A stretch of 64,000 nt of DNA from Pseudidiomarina terrestris (GTDB lineage Bacteria; Pseudomonadota; Gammaproteobacteria; Enterobacterales; Alteromonadaceae): the NCBI RefSeq assembly GCF_030466405.1, contig NZ_JAGGJF010000005.1, positions 1-64,000 of the forward strand. Reading direction: 5' to 3'. Shown here in pieces: positions 6,247 to 17,621 of this stretch. The notes below the pieces were generated by a model. The model did no database searches and was not told where the DNA came from. It saw only the letters and a program-made list of their open reading frames with translations. The position numbers and the translations under genes were made by a program. Numbering within the stretch: the first letter of the stretch is position 1; each line of letters opens with the position of its first letter.

Positions 6247-6720
6247 GTGCCGAACCGTTACGGGTTTATCAGTTACATCGCTCTGTTTTTACTCTTCACG
6301 CTGTTGGCGCGGCCCGTTGCTGCGCAAGACACAATGACTCAGTTTACCTTATCTGCCCCCGAACAAAGCCGTGAAGGCTATTTTGTGCTGGCGCTCGATC
6401 AGGCGCCGCTACGGGGCATGGTGGTGCAGCAAAGCTCGCAGGCGGACTTCATTAAAATTGACGCGGAGTTCGTTTGGTTTGGGGACTTCGAGAAAATGAC
6501 TCTGACCGGCTTCAGTGACGGCAACTTTTACTTCCGGCTAAAACCGGCTGAAAACGTACAAAGCAACGTGGTCGGTGTGACAGTGACCCATTATCCCAGC
6601 TGGCAGGCCTACACCCTGTTCTTTACCGGGCTGGGATTGTTCATTCTGTTGGTCATCACTATCATCACGCTCCACCTTCGCAGTCGCGACACTAAAGTAG
6701 CGGAGGTACAGGATGACTGA
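6247..6720 (+). CDS. Exported protein with a C-terminal membrane anchor, unknown function
   Basis: This 157-residue protein is not recognised. Residues 1-26 form a signal peptide ending ARPVAA. About 95 residues of alternating hydrophobic and polar strands follow, suggesting a small periplasmic beta-sandwich. A transmembrane helix lies near 121-143 (LFFTGLGLFILLVITIITL), and a short charged tail should be cytoplasmic. It begins with GTG after AGGAAGGAA. It is the first gene of a five-gene operon and overlaps the symporter gene by 8 bp, so it probably acts with the transporter, for example as an accessory or sensing subunit. That role is inferred from position only. Confidence 0.7.
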   Translation: MPNRYGFISYIALFLLFTLLARPVAAQDTMTQFTLSAPEQSREGYFVLALDQAPLRGMVVQQSSQADFIKIDAEFVWFGDFEKMTLTGFSDGNFYFRLKPAENVQSNVVGVTVTHYPSWQAYTLFFTGLGLFILLVITIITLHLRSRDTKVAEVQDD

Positions 6721-8152
6721 AGCAAGTGGTTTCGCCCTTTCGAGCACGCTAGGGTTAACCCTGGTGGTGCTATTCGGCTTGGCGTGGGTACTGTTCGGCT
6801 GGTACCTCGGGCGGGCCAACAAGACTCATGAAGACTTTGCGCTGGCAGGGCGTAACGTTGGCTTTGCGCTGGCATCAGCGACCGCCATGGCGACCTGGGT
6901 CACCAGCAATACGACGTTAGTTGCACCGCAACTGACCTATCAGTTTGGTGTCTGGGGCATGGTCGGCTATTCCTTTGCCGCCCTGGGACTTATTCTATTT
7001 GCCCCGCTGGCCGCCCGCATCAAGCGCTTAATGCCTAACGGTTACACCTCTGGTGACTTTGTGCGGCTGCGATACGGGCAGAGTGCCTGGTGGGCCTTTA
7101 TTCTGATATCTGTGGTGTATGCCTTTGGCTGGCTTATCAGTCTGGGCATGGCCGGTGGTATTTTGCTGGAGGCATTAAGCGGCCTTGATTATCACATCGG
7201 CATGACTGCGATTTTAATCATTTGCGTCGGTTACACTCTGTTTGGCGGGCTGCGCGCCGTCATCGCCACGGATTTTATTCAGGCCTTAATTATTATTCTC
7301 GGTGTGGTACTTATCGCCTGGTTCCTGATTGATACCGTGAGTCTGGAAACCATCCATAGTGAAGTGCAGGACAACCACCCGCAGTTACTGGATTTATTGT
7401 TTCCTGCGGCAATCATGTTTTTATTCAATAATATATTTTTCGGTCTGGGTGAAATTTTCCACTCCAATGTCTGGTGGTCACGCGCCTTAGCCTTTAAAGG
7501 CTCGGTGGCCTTTAAAGCTTATTTACTTGGCGGGGTTTTGTGGTTACCGATCCCTATTGTAACTGGCTTTATCGCCCTGGCCGCGCCACAGCTGGGTATA
7601 TTCCCGCCGAGCGCCGACATGGTAGGACCTATGGTTGCGGCAGAAGTGCTTGGCAAAATTGGCGCTGTGGTGGTGTTCATCGTCGTGTTTTCAGCATTGG
7701 CTTCGAGTCTGGATTCACTGTTGGCTGCGACCTCTGATCTGGTCACCCGCGATATCTACCATAAAAAATTAAAGCCCGATGCCGGCGATAAGCATCTGTT
7801 GCGGTTCAACCGCTACAGCATTCTTGGCCTGGGCATACTGACCTGGCTGTTTTGCTTACCAAAAATTGCCACTCTGGGAGCGCTTTTAAACTTCGCGGGT
7901 GCTTTTGTCGCCAGCACTATATTCCCAATTGTGCTGGGCCTCTACAACCGCCGGTTAAGTGGCCGATACGCGGCATTGGCGATGACATTAGGTACGCTGT
8001 CAGGGTTGGCAGGTTATTTTGTTGTCGGTTTCTACGTCGCTGCGTTAGTGTCCTGTAGTGTTTCTGCCTTAATTTGTGGTTTAGGACTATTATTAAGTAA
8101 ACATAAATTCGACTGGCAGCAGCTTAATGAGCAAGAGGAGCACTCGGCATGA
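6713..8152 (+). CDS. Sodium:solute symporter (SSS family)
   Basis: A 479-residue inner-membrane protein with about 13 hydrophobic helices and the SSS hallmarks: DFALAGRNVG near residue 40, GGLRAVIATDFIQ near 180, and SALASSLDSLLAATSDLVTRD in the sodium-binding region near 340. It should import an organic solute with Na+. The N-terminal pattern (AGRN followed by TSNTTLVAPQL and YQFGVWG) faintly recalls urea/ureide-type SSS members, but substrate cannot be fixed from sequence. Translation is coupled at both ends: it overlaps the preceding gene by 8 bp and its TGA overlaps the ATG of a 40-codon gene. The neighbours are a carbamoyltransferase-like and an AsnB-like enzyme, so a carbamoylated or amidated amino acid is a reasonable guess. 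Confidence 0.85.
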   Translation: MTEASGFALSSTLGLTLVVLFGLAWVLFGWYLGRANKTHEDFALAGRNVGFALASATAMATWVTSNTTLVAPQLTYQFGVWGMVGYSFAALGLILFAPLAARIKRLMPNGYTSGDFVRLRYGQSAWWAFILISVVYAFGWLISLGMAGGILLEALSGLDYHIGMTAILIICVGYTLFGGLRAVIATDFIQALIIILGVVLIAWFLIDTVSLETIHSEVQDNHPQLLDLLFPAAIMFLFNNIFFGLGEIFHSNVWWSRALAFKGSVAFKAYLLGGVLWLPIPIVTGFIALAAPQLGIFPPSADMVGPMVAAEVLGKIGAVVVFIVVFSALASSLDSLLAATSDLVTRDIYHKKLKPDAGDKHLLRFNRYSILGLGILTWLFCLPKIATLGALLNFAGAFVASTIFPIVLGLYNRRLSGRYAALAMTLGTLSGLAGYFVVGFYVAALVSCSVSALICGLGLLLSKHKFDWQQLNEQEEHSA

Positions 8153-8271
8153 CCATGGGATTAACCGCATTCAGTACCCTGGTATTGGTCTGCTTAGTGC
8201 TGACCGCGTGCGCCCCTGTGATTTTAATTGGGCTTTGGCTAAAAGATTTCATTTCTAAACAAATATGGTAA
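8149..8271 (+). CDS. 40-residue membrane peptide, probable symporter partner
   Basis: The frame reads MTMGLTAFSTLVLVCLVLTA, then CAPVILIGLW and LKDFISKQIW, ending TAA at 8269-8271. It is one long hydrophobic helix (about 5-30) with a short amphipathic basic tail. Its ATG overlaps the symporter stop as ATGA, and the next gene starts 6 bp later, so it is embedded in the operon and very likely translated. Small single-helix subunits of this kind accompany some secondary transporters (for example MetS with MetP). By analogy it may assist the SSS protein. A lipobox-like LTAC is present, but the hydrophobic residues after the cysteine argue against a lipoprotein. Confidence 0.6.
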   Translation: MTMGLTAFSTLVLVCLVLTACAPVILIGLWLKDFISKQIW

Positions 8272-8277
8272 TTCATT

Positions 8278-9342
8278 ATGAACGTAAATGACGTTTCGTT
8301 TGAGCGAGAACGTCCTGATGTCTATGGGGATGCGCATCCAAAAGCATTACTGAGGACGATTCAGGAAGATGGTGATTTTTTAGTTAAGCTTGCCAAACAG
8401 CATATTGTTTCAGGCGACCAGTTTGATCAGGACACAATGAAACAGTTGTTCCGGTTAGCGGCGAAAATTGAGAGTAACCCGAAGCGGTTCAGTTCGCCCT
8501 TGCAGAATAAAATTCTGATCAGTGCTTTTTACGAGCCGAGTACGCGCACCCGACTCTCTTTTGAGAGTGCCTGGCACCGCCTCGGAGGCGACATTATGTC
8601 CATCACCGATCGTTCCACGACCGGAATTGCTAAAGGCGAATGCCTTGCTGATGTGGCCGAAATGTTTAACAACTATGGCGATTGTGTGGTGTTGCGCGAC
8701 AACAACGAAAGCTCGCTATTTGAAATGATGGATGCGCTACGCATTCCGATCATTAATGCGGGGAACGGAGTCGATGAACATCCGACTCAGGCATTGGCCG
8801 ATATGTATGCGATTTTCAAATGGCGGCCAACGCTCATCGACCCGGAAGCCAATGATAAAATTAAAATCGGTGTCATCGGCGTACCCAATAAAATGCGCAC
8901 CGTACGCAGCTTTTTGAAATGTCTTTCGGTGTTCCCTGCGGCGGTAGATGAACTGGTCATCATTCATGACGAAGCCAGTTCCGGTGATCTCTTTGGCGAG
9001 GGCCAACGGGAAGAGCTTGAGGAGCGGGGCATTCGTATCCGCACGGCCACCGAACTTGATGACGTGCTTCCGGAACTGGATATTGTCTATATCAACGCAA
9101 TTTCATGGGAAGGCGATACCTTCAGCACTTATGGTGATGCCTTCCACTTAACTGAAAAGTCACCACTTAAAGAAGACGCAATTATTTTACATCCTTTGGC
9201 GCGCGGAGAAGAGTTGTCGACGGCTCTCGATCACACCTCGCACAATTGGTATTTCAGCCAGGCCCGAGGCGCGGTATTTCTGCGCATGGCTTTACTCACC
9301 TGTATGGTCGAACGCGCGGAACGCGTGATGGATGTGGTGTAA
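8278..9342 (+). CDS. Aspartate-carbamoyltransferase-like enzyme with altered amino-acid site
   Basis: The 354-residue protein aligns over its length with the PyrB catalytic chain. The carbamoyl-phosphate site is intact: STRTR (88-92), K119 in GIAKGE, R140, and HPTQ (168-171). R207 in RTVRS matches E. coli R167. The aspartate-specific loop TRVQKER of E. coli (R229, Q231) is replaced by INAISWEGD (272-280), and HPLPR becomes HPLAR (305-309). It also has an N-terminal extension of about 35 residues, and no pyrI follows. These changes suggest transfer of a carbamoyl group to an amino acid other than aspartate. It sits between the symporter/peptide pair and an AsnB-like gene (21-bp gap). Automatic annotation would call it pyrB; I think a paralogue with a new acceptor is more likely. 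Confidence 0.8.
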   Translation: MNVNDVSFERERPDVYGDAHPKALLRTIQEDGDFLVKLAKQHIVSGDQFDQDTMKQLFRLAAKIESNPKRFSSPLQNKILISAFYEPSTRTRLSFESAWHRLGGDIMSITDRSTTGIAKGECLADVAEMFNNYGDCVVLRDNNESSLFEMMDALRIPIINAGNGVDEHPTQALADMYAIFKWRPTLIDPEANDKIKIGVIGVPNKMRTVRSFLKCLSVFPAAVDELVIIHDEASSGDLFGEGQREELEERGIRIRTATELDDVLPELDIVYINAISWEGDTFSTYGDAFHLTEKSPLKEDAIILHPLARGEELSTALDHTSHNWYFSQARGAVFLRMALLTCMVERAERVMDVV

Positions 9343-9363
9343 CACTTACGAGGATTAAGCAAA

Positions 9364-11379
9364 ATGTGTGGTATTGCAGGAATTTTCAATCAGAGCACCG
9401 GGCATAAACCCGACGCCCAGACACTCGTTAACATGGCCGCCATTATGCACCATCGCGGTCCTGATGGTTTTGGTTATCAGATTCTGGATGAGACGGGCGT
9501 AGGTTTTAGCCATGCCCGGCTGTCTATTATTGATTTAAACGAAGAGCGCGCGCGTCAGCCATTTATTTCTGCCGATGGCAATCTGATGCTCGCCCATAAC
9601 GGTGAGTTCTACGATTTTAAAAGGATCCGCGGCGATTTGACGGCGCAGGGTGCGCGGTTTCGCACTAAAAGTGACTCGGAAATCGTCATGCACCTTTACC
9701 AGCGTGAAGGTCTTGAGGAAACACTGACGCATTTACGCGGAGAGTTCGCGTTCAGCATGTACGATCAGGAACAAGATTGTATGTACCTGGTGCGGGACCG
9801 TTTTGGCATTAAACCACTGTATTACACCCATACGGATGATGGCGTGGTCTTTGGTTCTGAGTTAAAGGTGCTGTTTGCCCATCCGTCAGTAAAACGGGAA
9901 TTCTCTACCGAGGGTCTTTATCATCAGCTGATTCAGGTGATGGTGCCAGGGTCTACCGCGTTTGAGGGGATCTATCAGGTGCCGCCTGGTCACGTGGTAA
10001 AAGTACAGCGTAAGGATGGCAAGCTGAAGCTATCTGAGCATAAATATTGGGATGTTAACTTTCCACAGGAAAGTGAGTATCCGGGTGGCGATGTTGATGA
10101 GCAACCTTACATCGATGGTGTGCGTAAACATCTTCTGGAAGCCGTGCAGCATCGTTTAACTGCCGATGTACCAGTAGGCTGTTATTTGTCTGGCGGGATC
10201 GACTCCTGTGCCATTCTTGGTCTCTCTGCGGCATCAACACAAACTTCGGTGAAGGCCTTTACCATCGGGTTCGATTCAAGTGAATATGATGAAACCCCGA
10301 TTGCTCAGGAGATGGCCGAGGCAACGGGCGCCGATCACCATATTATGCGGCTCAATGCCGATGATTTGTACGATCACTTTGTGAAAACCATCTGGCATAC
10401 CGAGCGTACCATCTACAACACGCTGGGTGTTGCCAAATACCTGATGAGCCAGCAAGTCAATCAGGTCAATTATAAAGTGGTGTTGACGGGCGAAGGCTCT
10501 GACGAACTCTTTGCCGGTTATCCAGCGTTTCGTAAGGACATGTTCTTACATGGTCTGGATCACCTGCCCGATAGTGAGCGTAAAGCCTGGCAGGAGTTGC
10601 TGGAGAAGAACAACAAGCTGTTTAAAGGTGCGATGCTGGCCCGGGAGGAATATGTTAGTCCGGCCTTTAATACCAAGATGGGCTTTACCCCAAGCTGCGT
10701 GCAGCCCTGGTTGTCGGTTTCAAGTGTAGCGTTACCCCTGATAGCCAAGCATCGTCGCGCAGAAGTGGAAGAATATGATCCTGGTAAGGCCATTGCCGAT
10801 ACTCTTGATGAAGAGATGTTGAAAGGGCGTCATCCGTTGGATCGTGCCCAGTATGTATGGATAAAAACCATGCTGGAAGGGCAGATCCTGACCTGGGGTG
10901 GTGATCGGGTGGATATGGCCAACTCAATGGAAGCGCGGCCAGCGTTTCTTGATCATCATCTTGCCGAGTATGCGTTTACCGTGCCACCGCACCTGCGCAT
11001 CAAAGGCAATAAAGAGAAGTATGTTTTACGTGAGGCGATGAAAGGGCTGCTGCCAGAAACACTGTATAAGCGTGAAAAGTTTGCGTTTATGGCACCACCA
11101 GCGCATACCGACCCCAAAAAATGGCGAGCGGTGGAGAAACTGGCGGAGCAGTTTTTAACCCAGGATGCGGTTGAAGAAGCCGGTCTGCTTGATTTTGAAG
11201 AGGTGCAGCGCACCTTCGAGAAACATGAGTCGGACGAAGTGAGTATTGATGAAAAAGTGCAGCTTGATGCGGTCATTAACCACATGCTGGGTGTACAAAT
11301 TCTGCATCATCATTTTGTTAAGAGCGACGTACCAATGCTCGCCGCTCAACGTGCTCAGGAACTGGGTTGGCAGGCCTGA
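9364..11379 (+). CDS. AsnB-type glutamine-dependent amidotransferase, long form
   Basis: The 671-residue protein has an N-terminal glutaminase domain starting MCGIAGIF, so Cys2 is the nucleophile after Met removal. HHRGPDG (29-35) and AHNGEFYDF (77-85) line its active site. The ATP-pyrophosphatase domain follows, with the PP-loop SGGIDS at 276-281 and LTGEGSDELFAGY further on. Such enzymes activate a carboxylate with ATP and amidate it with glutamine nitrogen. At 671 residues it is over 100 longer than E. coli AsnB (554), with a C-terminal extension after the core. The long AsnB branch includes enzymes that amidate peptides and osmolytes, not only aspartate. It is the last gene of the operon, so its substrate may be the product of the carbamoyltransferase-like enzyme. 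Confidence 0.85.
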   Translation: MCGIAGIFNQSTGHKPDAQTLVNMAAIMHHRGPDGFGYQILDETGVGFSHARLSIIDLNEERARQPFISADGNLMLAHNGEFYDFKRIRGDLTAQGARFRTKSDSEIVMHLYQREGLEETLTHLRGEFAFSMYDQEQDCMYLVRDRFGIKPLYYTHTDDGVVFGSELKVLFAHPSVKREFSTEGLYHQLIQVMVPGSTAFEGIYQVPPGHVVKVQRKDGKLKLSEHKYWDVNFPQESEYPGGDVDEQPYIDGVRKHLLEAVQHRLTADVPVGCYLSGGIDSCAILGLSAASTQTSVKAFTIGFDSSEYDETPIAQEMAEATGADHHIMRLNADDLYDHFVKTIWHTERTIYNTLGVAKYLMSQQVNQVNYKVVLTGEGSDELFAGYPAFRKDMFLHGLDHLPDSERKAWQELLEKNNKLFKGAMLAREEYVSPAFNTKMGFTPSCVQPWLSVSSVALPLIAKHRRAEVEEYDPGKAIADTLDEEMLKGRHPLDRAQYVWIKTMLEGQILTWGGDRVDMANSMEARPAFLDHHLAEYAFTVPPHLRIKGNKEKYVLREAMKGLLPETLYKREKFAFMAPPAHTDPKKWRAVEKLAEQFLTQDAVEEAGLLDFEEVQRTFEKHESDEVSIDEKVQLDAVINHMLGVQILHHHFVKSDVPMLAAQRAQELGWQA

Positions 11380-15352: not shown

Positions 15353-17158
15353 TTAAAATTGAATATCGGCAACAATGGGGTCGTGATCCGATGAGCGGTA
15401 AGGCGTTGGTGCATACCAGTCAGGATTTTGGGAATAGCCTTGGTAACTAAGCGCGGGCGGCTCATCGGCATTAATCAGCCAATGGTGTTGCTGCAAGACA
15501 CGACCATGCAGCGCGGCTGAAACTAACAAATGGTCGAGGCTACCGGCCTGGGCATCGTAAACATAAGAATAACCCAATGGTTCGAAGTGTTCGGCGCGGT
15601 TATGAAAACCGGCCTGACTCATCAGGGTCATCGGATCTTCTTTTGCATAGGCATTAAAATCGCCGAGTAAAATCTGCGCCGGGGTACTGGCCAAGATCGG
15701 TTGGCTTTGCATGAACTCGACCAATAACTCGGCGGACTGCACCCGGGCTGCATTCCAGCAGGCCTGCCCATCGTGTTGATTGGCATTGGGATCAGTTTCA
15801 TCGCGCGGGCAGGAACCTTTCGATTTGAAGTGATTGACGGCAACCACGAAAGCTTCCTCAGTACCTTTGGGCTGCATGCGCTGGATCAGCGGGTAACGAC
15901 TGCGGTTACTGAACGGGCCCTCGGTAATCGTCATGGTCTCGCCCAGCAGATCGACACGGTCAGTTCTGTAGATCAGCCCGTTGGTAATGGAAGCGCCACC
16001 AAACTGACCATCTGCCGCGTGAACGAACTGCCAGGGCGCGCCGGTGGCAGCGGCAAGCTGCCGGGTAAGTCTGACGATGGCGCTGTGTGACGCATAACCA
16101 TCATTTTCAATTTCCATTAATCCCACCACATCGGCATCAAGCGCAGCCAGCGCGGCAATGATTTTGGCTTCCTGTCGCGCAAAGTCTGCGGCGGTGGGGG
16201 CCCCGCGCTCGGTGGGGAACTCGTGTGTGGCGCCGTCACCGTTGAAGTAATTTAAAACGTTAAAGGTTGCGATACGCAACACACTGCGGTCGTCATTACG
16301 TGGCGGCGCCGCAGGACGGGGATTGCTGGCCACGAAGTTAAGCTCCGTCGTGGGCTGAATTCGGTAGCTACCATTAAACTCACTGAGAATGCCGGTGACA
16401 CTGCTGACCGTATCGCCGCTGCGCAAGGTGTTGCTGGCGTTAAGTTGCGGGCTTGGGTAAGGAATCTCGGTGGCAGCTGGCGCCTGATTATCGTCAATCA
16501 CTAAGCGCTTTAATTCATTTGCCTGAGCGTATGCCCGCGCGGCCGGACCCGGCTCGACCCTTTGTGTCGGTGTGTAGAGCCGCTCAGAGGCCACATCAAA
16601 ACTGCCGTGGCGACCTAACAAATAGGTGCCATTGACCACCAGTGCCTGTGGCAGACTGACGAAACGGCCTTCGAGTTGTTCCAGTTCAGCTTTGGTCGTC
16701 ACTGGCAGACGTAACGCATAAGGTTGCGGTAACTCAGCCTTGCCACAGAGCTGCAGCTGACTGACCTCATCCAGCTGCGTTAGTTGTTGATGTTCCCGCA
16801 CGATTCCTGTTACTGCGACGCGGTCGCCGATTTCCACCCGCGGCGTCTCAGTTTGCACGAACAGCGCTGCGGCTTGTCCGTCAGCGTGCTGCTCGATAAA
16901 GAAGCCACCCAGCTGTCCGGACTGTTGCCAGCTCGCGGTGACGGTACCGGTGACGACCACCTGCTGATCGGCCAGAGGAGAAACAGGGCCAGAGCCTTGC
17001 ACCGTGGCCAGACTGGTGCTGGCCTCGCACTGCGGTGCGTTGGCGGTGCCAGTGGGACTGTCCGGTGGTGGTGCAGAACAGGCGGTTAAACCTAGTGCAA
17101 AAAATACGGCCAAGGGCCAGAGTCGGTTAGTCATTTTGGCTAAAGTGGTGTTTTGCAT
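15353..17158 (-). CDS. Extracellular endonuclease/exonuclease/phosphatase-family nuclease (ExeM/NucH type), lipoprotein
   Basis: A 601-residue exported enzyme. A lipoprotein signal ends at LGLTAC (about residue 27). An OB-fold-like region (about 40-280, with VVVTGTVTASW and VAVTGIVREHQ) precedes the EEP nuclease domain from about 290. That domain contains IATFNVLNYF, VGLMEIEND, NHFKSKGSC, LLGDFNAYAKEDP, SLDHLL and SSDHDPI, giving the metal-binding and catalytic His/Asp set. Relatives such as ExeM of Shewanella and Xds of Vibrio degrade extracellular DNA in biofilms. The ATG at 17158 has AGGA 5 bases upstream and overlaps the end of marR by 32 bp, suggesting co-transcription with the regulator. 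Confidence 0.85.
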   Translation of the reverse strand: MQNTTLAKMTNRLWPLAVFFALGLTACSAPPPDSPTGTANAPQCEASTSLATVQGSGPVSPLADQQVVVTGTVTASWQQSGQLGGFFIEQHADGQAAALFVQTETPRVEIGDRVAVTGIVREHQQLTQLDEVSQLQLCGKAELPQPYALRLPVTTKAELEQLEGRFVSLPQALVVNGTYLLGRHGSFDVASERLYTPTQRVEPGPAARAYAQANELKRLVIDDNQAPAATEIPYPSPQLNASNTLRSGDTVSSVTGILSEFNGSYRIQPTTELNFVASNPRPAAPPRNDDRSVLRIATFNVLNYFNGDGATHEFPTERGAPTAADFARQEAKIIAALAALDADVVGLMEIENDGYASHSAIVRLTRQLAAATGAPWQFVHAADGQFGGASITNGLIYRTDRVDLLGETMTITEGPFSNRSRYPLIQRMQPKGTEEAFVVAVNHFKSKGSCPRDETDPNANQHDGQACWNAARVQSAELLVEFMQSQPILASTPAQILLGDFNAYAKEDPMTLMSQAGFHNRAEHFEPLGYSYVYDAQAGSLDHLLVSAALHGRVLQQHHWLINADEPPALSYQGYSQNPDWYAPTPYRSSDHDPIVADIQF

Positions 17159-17621
17159 AGGTTCCTACTTCTAAAACGTCGGCAGCATCAAGGCGTTCGG
17201 CATCCATCATGGCAGCAATGCGCTGCATGGCGGCGAGCAGCTGGGATTGTTCCCAATCCGCGAGGCCCTGAAATTTATTGATAAAGTCTTCTTGTAGCGG
17301 GCGCGGTGCGGCTTTAAGACGCTCGGCCCCTTGCCTGGTCAGTGATAACACCACGCGGCGTCGATCCTGAGTACTGCGCTCACGGTGAATCAATTCACGG
17401 TGCTCAAGACGGTCGATAACGTTACTGACGGTAGCGGGGCTGAGGGTTATATTTTGCGCCACCGCACTGGCGGTAATGCCTGCCGGAGCAGCAGCAACCT
17501 CACGTAAGATCAGTAACTGCGGAGCGGTCAAGCCAGTAAGTTTATGGAGTTGTTTGGAATAAAGATCGGTCGCGCGAATCACCTTACGCAAGGCAAGCAG
17601 CAACTCGTCATATTTTTCCAT
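17127..17621 (-). CDS. MarR-family transcriptional regulator
   Basis: The 164-residue protein has the winged-helix fold of MarR regulators: TAPQLLILREVAA, the recognition segment NITLSPATVSNVIDRLEHREL (about 60-80), and the wing RSTQDRRRVVLSLT. Such proteins usually act as dimeric repressors released by small ligands. The start at 17621 follows AGAAGGAA. The gene overlaps the nuclease gene downstream by 32 bp, so the nuclease is a likely target. The gap to csiV upstream is 59 bp. The ligand is unknown. Confidence 0.9.
   Translation of the reverse strand: MEKYDELLLALRKVIRATDLYSKQLHKLTGLTAPQLLILREVAAAPAGITASAVAQNITLSPATVSNVIDRLEHRELIHRERSTQDRRRVVLSLTRQGAERLKAAPRPLQEDFINKFQGLADWEQSQLLAAMQRIAAMMDAERLDAADVLEVGTYAKHHFSQND

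Follow-up and report, generated by a model that had tools for sequence, protein, structure and literature searches.

A short run of genes on the plus strand of Pseudidiomarina terrestris—positions 6247-11379 of the 64-kb stretch of contig NZ_JAGGJF010000005.1 that, as a whole, we call the window—comprises five open reading frames (ORFs) in a row, operon-like when checked against the ORF list, for a predicted anchored periplasmic protein (gene 1), a sodium:solute symporter of the SSS family (gene 2), a 40-residue peptide (gene 3), a PyrB-like carbamoyltransferase (gene 4) and an AsnB-like amidotransferase (gene 5). What would a bacterium do with such a set? The five-gene operon is a real, conserved unit, and the reading that we find best supported, and hold with moderate confidence, is that it is a ureido-amide compatible-solute module, one that would make and retrieve an uncharged N-carbamoyl-amino-acid amide. 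That this product is specifically carbamoylglutamine amide we suggest more tentatively; each reaction, the product and the osmotic role are things that we infer.

The pathway would have two steps. Judging from its residues, the PyrB-like enzyme would use carbamoyl phosphate to carbamoylate the alpha-amino group of some amino acid that is not aspartate, and the AsnB-like enzyme, to go by its family and its neighbourhood, would then convert the free carboxylate of this carbamoyl amino acid to an amide at the cost of ATP and glutamine, so that both charges would be masked. Recovery of leaked solute, or its import, would fall to the symporter and two partners, the anchored periplasmic protein and the 40-residue peptide; in many relatives, an isochorismatase-family enzyme would strip the amide and an M20 enzyme the carbamoyl group, giving back the amino acid, CO2 and ammonia. 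If all of this is true, carbamoylglutamine amide would be widespread and would come with marker genes, Pseudidiomarina would have a testable route of osmoadaptation, and the operon would add a carbamoyltransferase that takes a new acceptor, along with a micropeptide for the symporter that is present in every symporter-bearing locus fetched.

The carbamoyltransferase-like and AsnB-like enzymes

Judged by its sequence, gene 4 is not an ordinary aspartate carbamoyltransferase (ATCase). It passes none of the NCBIfam models listed, the ATCase equivalog TIGR00670 included (202.2 bits against a cut-off of 236.95), and the possibility, raised in an initial annotation of the window, that it might be the only pyrB in the genome is excluded by a separate, true pyrB, which passes TIGR00670 at 310.5 bits and also reaches 645.4 bits against a cut-off of 512 for aspartate carbamoyltransferase. 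A third carbamoyltransferase gene, argF-like, sits among the arginine genes of the same genome. Gene 4 nevertheless shares the PyrB fold: its AlphaFold model (mean predicted local distance difference test score, pLDDT, 84.2) has ATCases as its best solved Foldseek matches, the first being 1ml4, bound to N-phosphonacetyl-L-aspartate (PALA), at a template modelling (TM) score of 0.86 by target length.

The residues tell much the same story of likeness and departure. Invariant in all 104 distinct sequences are S88, T89, R90, T91, K119, R140, H168, Q171, R207, H305, P306, L307 and R309, and within this list we take S88-T-R-T91, K119, R140, H168 and Q171 to be the carbamoyl-phosphate residues, kept as in PyrB, and R207, from ATCase structures, to be the arginine that binds the alpha-carboxylate of the acceptor. 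Unlike PyrB, gene 4 does not have the arginine and glutamine that presumably hold the aspartate side chain in ATCase. At position 274, where the genome's own PyrB has Arg, the 104 sequences have Ala (86), Ser (17) or Thr (1), and at position 276, where it has Gln, they have Ala (64), Ser (38), Val (1) or Thr (1); in the window these are A274 and S276, which is what the "altered acceptor loop" of the initial annotation comes down to. M206, R210, N273 and W277 are likewise invariant and differ from the genome's own PyrB. Because R207 is kept while the Arg and Gln at 274 and 276 are replaced, we expect the acceptor to be an alpha-amino acid whose side chain is not acidic.

Gene 5 passes the model for glutamine-hydrolysing asparagine synthase (TIGR01536; 449.3 bits, cut-off 267.1) and fails both that for E. 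coli-type AsnB (PRK09431; 291.4 bits, cut-off 499) and that for the amidotransferase of N-acetylglutaminylglutamine amide (NAGGN) synthesis (TIGR03104; 312.7 bits, cut-off 570.1). Across 105 aligned AsnB-like rows (two repeats included), Cys2, SGGIDS, GEGSDEL and WGGDRVDMANSMEARP are conserved, gaps apart, with Cys2 present in 104 rows and one row gapped there. The E. coli-type motif D-C-x-R-A-N-K is absent from gene 5, which has DRVDMANSM in its place, and a motif of this type is present in the three separate AsnB proteins checked from carriers. We propose that gene 5 amidates a carbamoyl amino acid. As an observation in its own right, the asparagine supply of the window's organism shows one full-size AsnB-like gene, with neither AsnA nor GatB found.

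Gene order and linked hydrolases in relatives

Loci were chosen by their PyrB-like gene, and homologues within them were called by tblastn. We fetched 105 of them—5 from a family sample, 80 from named genomes (the best 80 of 219 relatives) and 20 of the 21 other carriers in a class sample (G394 was left out)—and, because L010 repeats L035 and L012 repeats L064, counts on distinct loci rest on 103. The named loci divide into 36 of idiomarinid type (L017-L052, some from metagenome-assembled genomes) and 44 others; the class loci are L157-L176. The initial annotation had suggested checking whether the PyrB-like, AsnB-like and SSS genes occur together, and they do: with the PyrB-like gene in all 103 distinct loci, the AsnB-like gene was found in 102, the symporter in 98, a gene 1 homologue in 64, an M20 gene in 61, an isochorismatase-family gene in 21 and an MscS gene in 3. 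Wherever both enzymes are present (102 of 102), the AsnB-like gene lies downstream of the PyrB-like gene on the same strand and within 1.5 kb; its match is partial in three of these loci, and the sole locus without it, L159, is truncated by a contig end.

A linked M20 gene accompanies the unit in 3/3 further family loci, 0/36 idiomarinid-type loci, 38/44 other named loci (counting a Cyanobium match that is only 37% identical) and 20/20 class loci, and a linked isochorismatase-family gene in 20/20 class loci and 1/44 other named ones. In the 16 of 20 class loci that have a symporter, the order is M20, isochorismatase, symporter, peptide, PyrB, AsnB, and in 9 of the 20 a look for motifs placed a gene-1-like ORF ahead of the M20 gene; in the other named loci the M20 gene stands before or behind the unit, often divergently. 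One phototroph (G164, which has pufLM) holds, at L164:5048-11105, M20, isochorismatase, PyrB-like, AsnB-like and MscS-type channel genes in a row, with no symporter found, so that genes to make, to break and perhaps to release the solute would stand together. The MscS matches are more than 60% identical in L158 and L164 and only 30% in L074. Apart from the hydrolases, 12 of the 20 class loci also carry an ORF cluster with a UvrD/Rep-type helicase, named from its sequence (e.g., L161:12332-14350), possibly an old neighbour of the module.

From their families, the linked hydrolases could reverse the carbamoylation and the amidation. With two enzymes to build and two that might take apart, working in opposite directions, the set argues for a product carrying both a carbamoyl and an amide group. 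All four M20 proteins scanned have the metal motifs, pass the hydantoinase/carbamoylase amidase model TIGR01879 (346-367 bits, cut-off 204) and pass the subfamily model NF006771, an allantoate amidohydrolase by name; they fall below the cut-off of every allantoate equivalog model listed. The M20 enzymes also fail the model for ErtE, an N-carbamyl-L-glutamate amidohydrolase (347-385 bits, cut-off 520), and their best solved match is the N-carbamoyl-L-amino acid hydrolase 3n5f. Elsewhere in the window's own genome, not linked to the operon, lies an M20 homologue that shares 58-64% identity with the relatives' M20 proteins compared and listed. For its part, the isochorismatase-family enzyme passes PF00857 (102.2 bits, cut-off 27) and fails the biuret amidohydrolase model NF050097 (61.4 bits, cut-off 370); its nearest NCBIfam models are biuret amidohydrolase (BiuH) and RutB, both below cut-off, and its solved matches include 1nba, N-carbamoylsarcosine amidohydrolase, so that the relatives with a name are enzymes of ureido or amide bonds. 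D47, K152 and C185, which we take to be the catalytic triad, are invariant in the 19 aligned rows (of 21 loci). The alignments are without M20 row L070 and isochorismatase rows L157 and L170, each of which has a stop in the translated stretch.

Where an M20 gene stands beside an isochorismatase gene, its product has Asn at the position of the 3n5f Asn in 21 of 21 cases; where there is no isochorismatase gene, it has His there in 39 of 40 distinct rows, that of the window's own genome included, the exception being Cyanobium (the two sets together come from L011-L014, L053-L096, L157-L176 and L099). Hyphomicrobiaceae locus L094 has the Asn and the isochorismatase gene, although in the tree its PyrB adjoins that of Kordiimonas, which has the His and no such gene. 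It may be that the free acid is the substrate of one M20 group and the amide itself that of the other; the split may also be clade history.

The PyrB-like gene occurs in 6 of 59 genomes of the family sample (E<=1e-60) and 22 of 369 of the class sample (E<=1e-100), the window's own counted in each, and the only congener in the family sample (G026) has no such gene at E<=1e-60. Among the best 80 of the 219 named relatives are Idiomarina, Kangiella, Pleionea, Aliikangiella, Alteromonas, Bowmanella, Pseudoalteromonas and Shewanella, as well as Nitrosomonas halophila, Kordiimonas, a Hyphomicrobiaceae metagenome-assembled genome and Cyanobium. A tree of the PyrB-like proteins nests Nitrosomonas halophila in the Alteromonadaceae (support 100/98), as does a quick AsnB tree, and sets Cyanobium next to a Pseudoalteromonas (93/79), placements that suggest sideways transfer. 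Among 72,556 plasmid records there was no match at E<=1e-60.

Product, osmotic role and alternatives

Why glutamine, and why salt? Three papers (PMC7824335, PMC1224877, PMC3857566) name carbamoylglutamine amide among the solutes of Ectothiorhodospira marismortui or of purple sulfur bacteria, and the last of these has it as a minor solute there, found in one organism only and described, by citation, in 1991. It is from this known compound that we consider glutamine the most likely acceptor. The initial annotation knew of no genes assigned to the route, and among open-licence PubMed Central papers we, too, found none that names them. For Pseudidiomarina terrestris itself, PMC10893183 reports KEGG identifiers for the synthesis of neither ectoine nor betaine and calls osmoadaptation not deducible from the genome.

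The logic of the initial annotation—carbamoylate, then amidate—has gained from the kept carbamoyl-transfer residues, the lost aspartate contacts, the separate pyrB and argF-like genes and the linked hydrolases, and a number of results nonetheless weigh against the solute module that we prefer. Nothing in the sequence fixes the choice of glutamine over other amino acids. Neither hydrolase gene is in the fetched flanks of the idiomarinid-type loci (36 of 36), and the 64 kb of the window hold neither an M20 nor an isochorismatase-family hydrolase, the latter having been sought within the window only and not across the whole genome. Gene 5 is the only full-size PF00733 protein found in the window's genome (a second match, at 21 bits, covers a short stretch), and neither AsnA nor GatB was found there by a search that, over 14 genomes as a control, matched AsnA in 2 and GatB in 12. 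Four of six phototrophs in the class sample are without the PyrB-like gene at E<=1e-100, and it was not found in two of their families (0 of 48 and 0 of 4 genomes), neither of which is shown to be that of Ectothiorhodospira, so that this last count says little. Nor were carriers set apart from non-carriers by a salinity proxy, the net acidic residues of ORFs within the first 20 kb of contig 1 (p 0.12, n=16 vs 17 genomes, from 20 of each after 4 and 3 were dropped as masked or too short). Finally, the need for another solute would not be general, because Idiomarina aminovorans ATCH4, for which betABT is listed in PMC12279604, appears among our named records (L040, Idiomarina sp. ATCH4) as a carrier of the operon.

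Might the chemistry be right and the use wrong? The same two reactions could serve to store nitrogen or could yield a signal or a metabolite for secretion, or they could act on another amino acid (Asn, Ala or others), and the sequence, which fixes neither acceptor nor salt control, leaves room for this, as does the acidity proxy; we think it unlikely, since many of the named carriers belong to marine or halophilic genera (by general knowledge of their habitats, uncounted, with Cyanobium perhaps an exception), 2 of the 20 class loci have an MscS-type gene more than 60% identical close to the module, and a MarR-type gene lies near part of the loci, as it does for NAGGN. A plainer suggestion is that gene 5 is simply the lineage's asparagine synthetase, accompanied by an ATCase paralogue, the PyrB-like gene, that has drifted. 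The lone full-size PF00733 protein, the missing AsnA and GatB and the passed TIGR01536 cut-off all speak for it. We searched for AsnB in 14 genomes, 13 carriers and the non-carrier congener G026, and 7 of the 13 carriers have a further, E. coli-like AsnB (three by motif, four by match pattern only), the remainder having no further AsnB or other types; in those seven the operon enzyme is thus an addition. G026 is without the PyrB-like gene and shows no PF00733 match at E<=1e-20, and so the pair can be absent jointly. An acceptor site altered alike in 104 of 104 distinct sequences is unlike drift, and the linkage to ureido and amide hydrolases would go unexplained, all of which makes this a quite improbable account.

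Ureide salvage turns the scheme around: the symporter would import a ureide, the hydrolases would degrade it and the PyrB-like enzyme would run in reverse to give carbamoyl phosphate. An SSS importer, M20 proteins that pass NF006771 and an isochorismatase-family enzyme nearest to BiuH and RutB would all suit such a scheme, but in 102 of 102 distinct loci the PyrB-like gene is followed by that of an amidotransferase that consumes ATP, and amidation does not fit clearly into a salvage route. The four scanned M20 proteins lie below every allantoate equivalog cut-off listed, and the 36 idiomarinid-type loci retain PyrB and AsnB with no linked hydrolase. We regard salvage as very unlikely, and return to a ureido-amide solute module as the account that we favour.

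The operon in the window and its known counterparts

The layout claimed in the initial annotation, five plus-strand genes with overlaps or gaps of 21 bp or less, was recovered in its coordinates (Table 1): genes 1 and 2 overlap by 8 bp and genes 2 and 3 by 4 bp, whereas genes 3 and 4 are 6 bp apart and genes 4 and 5 are 21 bp apart. Its gene families, too, are those matched by Pfam (SSF, PF00474; OTCace_N/OTCace; GATase and Asn_synthase). Read by eye, the ORFs of the left flank are folate-type genes, and that of the right flank is an alkaline-phosphatase-like gene on the opposite strand. A promoter scan gave just two promoter-like sites, both on the minus strand and none on the plus strand of the operon, and the promoter and terminator counts were not clearly higher than those of shuffled sequence.

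Table 1. Features of the operon and its possible regulator (positions in the window)
Feature	Position	Strand	Size or basis
Gene 1, no family, predicted anchored periplasmic beta-sandwich protein	6247..6720	+	157 aa
Gene 2, SSS-family sodium:solute symporter	6713..8152	+	479 aa
Gene 3, peptide with one hydrophobic stretch and a D-x6-W end	8149..8271	+	40 aa
Gene 4, PyrB-like carbamoyltransferase, OTCace_N/OTCace	8278..9342	+	354 aa
Gene 5, AsnB-like glutamine-dependent amidotransferase, GATase + Asn_synthase	9364..11379	+	671 aa
MarR-type gene, possible module regulator	17127..17621	-	ORF list; relatives' homologues

Gene 2 passes PF00474 (107.1 bits, cut-off 22.8, E 1.3e-30), scores 141.3 bits on TIGR00813, below its cut-off of 184, and passes no named NCBIfam model. 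Between the symporter and the PyrB-like gene, a small hydrophobic ORF appears in 98 of 98 distinct symporter-bearing loci (the five loci without a symporter were not scored); because whichever ORF of 25-70 codons was most hydrophobic was picked, its presence alone would be weak evidence. Its form says more: among 100 rows (2 of them repeats), 96 are 39-40 residues long, 100 end in W and 99 have D eight from the end, with nothing over cut-off in Pfam or NCBIfam for gene 3. Gene 1 has no Pfam or NCBIfam match, and Foldseek gave weak matches only (SoxY and FN3 type); the anchored periplasmic protein of the initial annotation agrees with its AlphaFold model (mean pLDDT 91.7), which predicts an N-terminal signal-like helix, a beta-sandwich and a long C-terminal membrane helix. 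Genes 1 and 3 are probably partners of the symporter. We propose that gene 1 is a symporter accessory or a solute sensor and that gene 3 is a small symporter subunit, a candidate for a class of very small SSS subunits.

As for regulation, the flanks fetched contain MarR-type homologues in 33 of 80 named loci, in 5 of 20 class loci and in 2 of 5 family loci, of which one is a repeat; in some (L053, L057, L060, L088 and L090) they adjoin the module. The MarR-type gene of the window might regulate the module, a weak possibility because it stands 5.7 kb from the operon.

How does all of this compare with what is known? Some SSS symporters have small subunits, and in PanF-YhdT and ActP-YjcH, as here, the gene for a small membrane protein adjoins the SSS gene; the operon peptide differs in being mostly 39-40 residues long and in having no family over cut-off. 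ErtE, of the ergothioneine pathway, and 3n5f share a family and metal-site motifs with the relatives' M20 enzymes, which differ in scoring below the ErtE cut-off and, in one M20 group, in having His where the 3n5f alignment has Asn. The carbamoylglutamine amide of Ectothiorhodospira is what both operon enzymes would give from glutamine; there, it is known as a compound only.

A close parallel is the NAGGN operon asnO-ngg (PA3459-PA3461), in which, according to PMC8070244, an osmolyte arises when AsnO, an amidotransferase of the AsnB type, caps an N-blocked glutamine derivative at its carboxylate. A MarR regulator controls this synthesis, and a peptidase gene and that regulator stand alongside, much as hydrolase and, in some, MarR-type genes do in relatives of our operon. 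A Pfam scan found no Ngg-like gene among our five, and here the two systems would part: in NAGGN the N-block is made by Ngg, whereas here it would be made by a carbamoyltransferase, and here the symporter is itself part of the operon.

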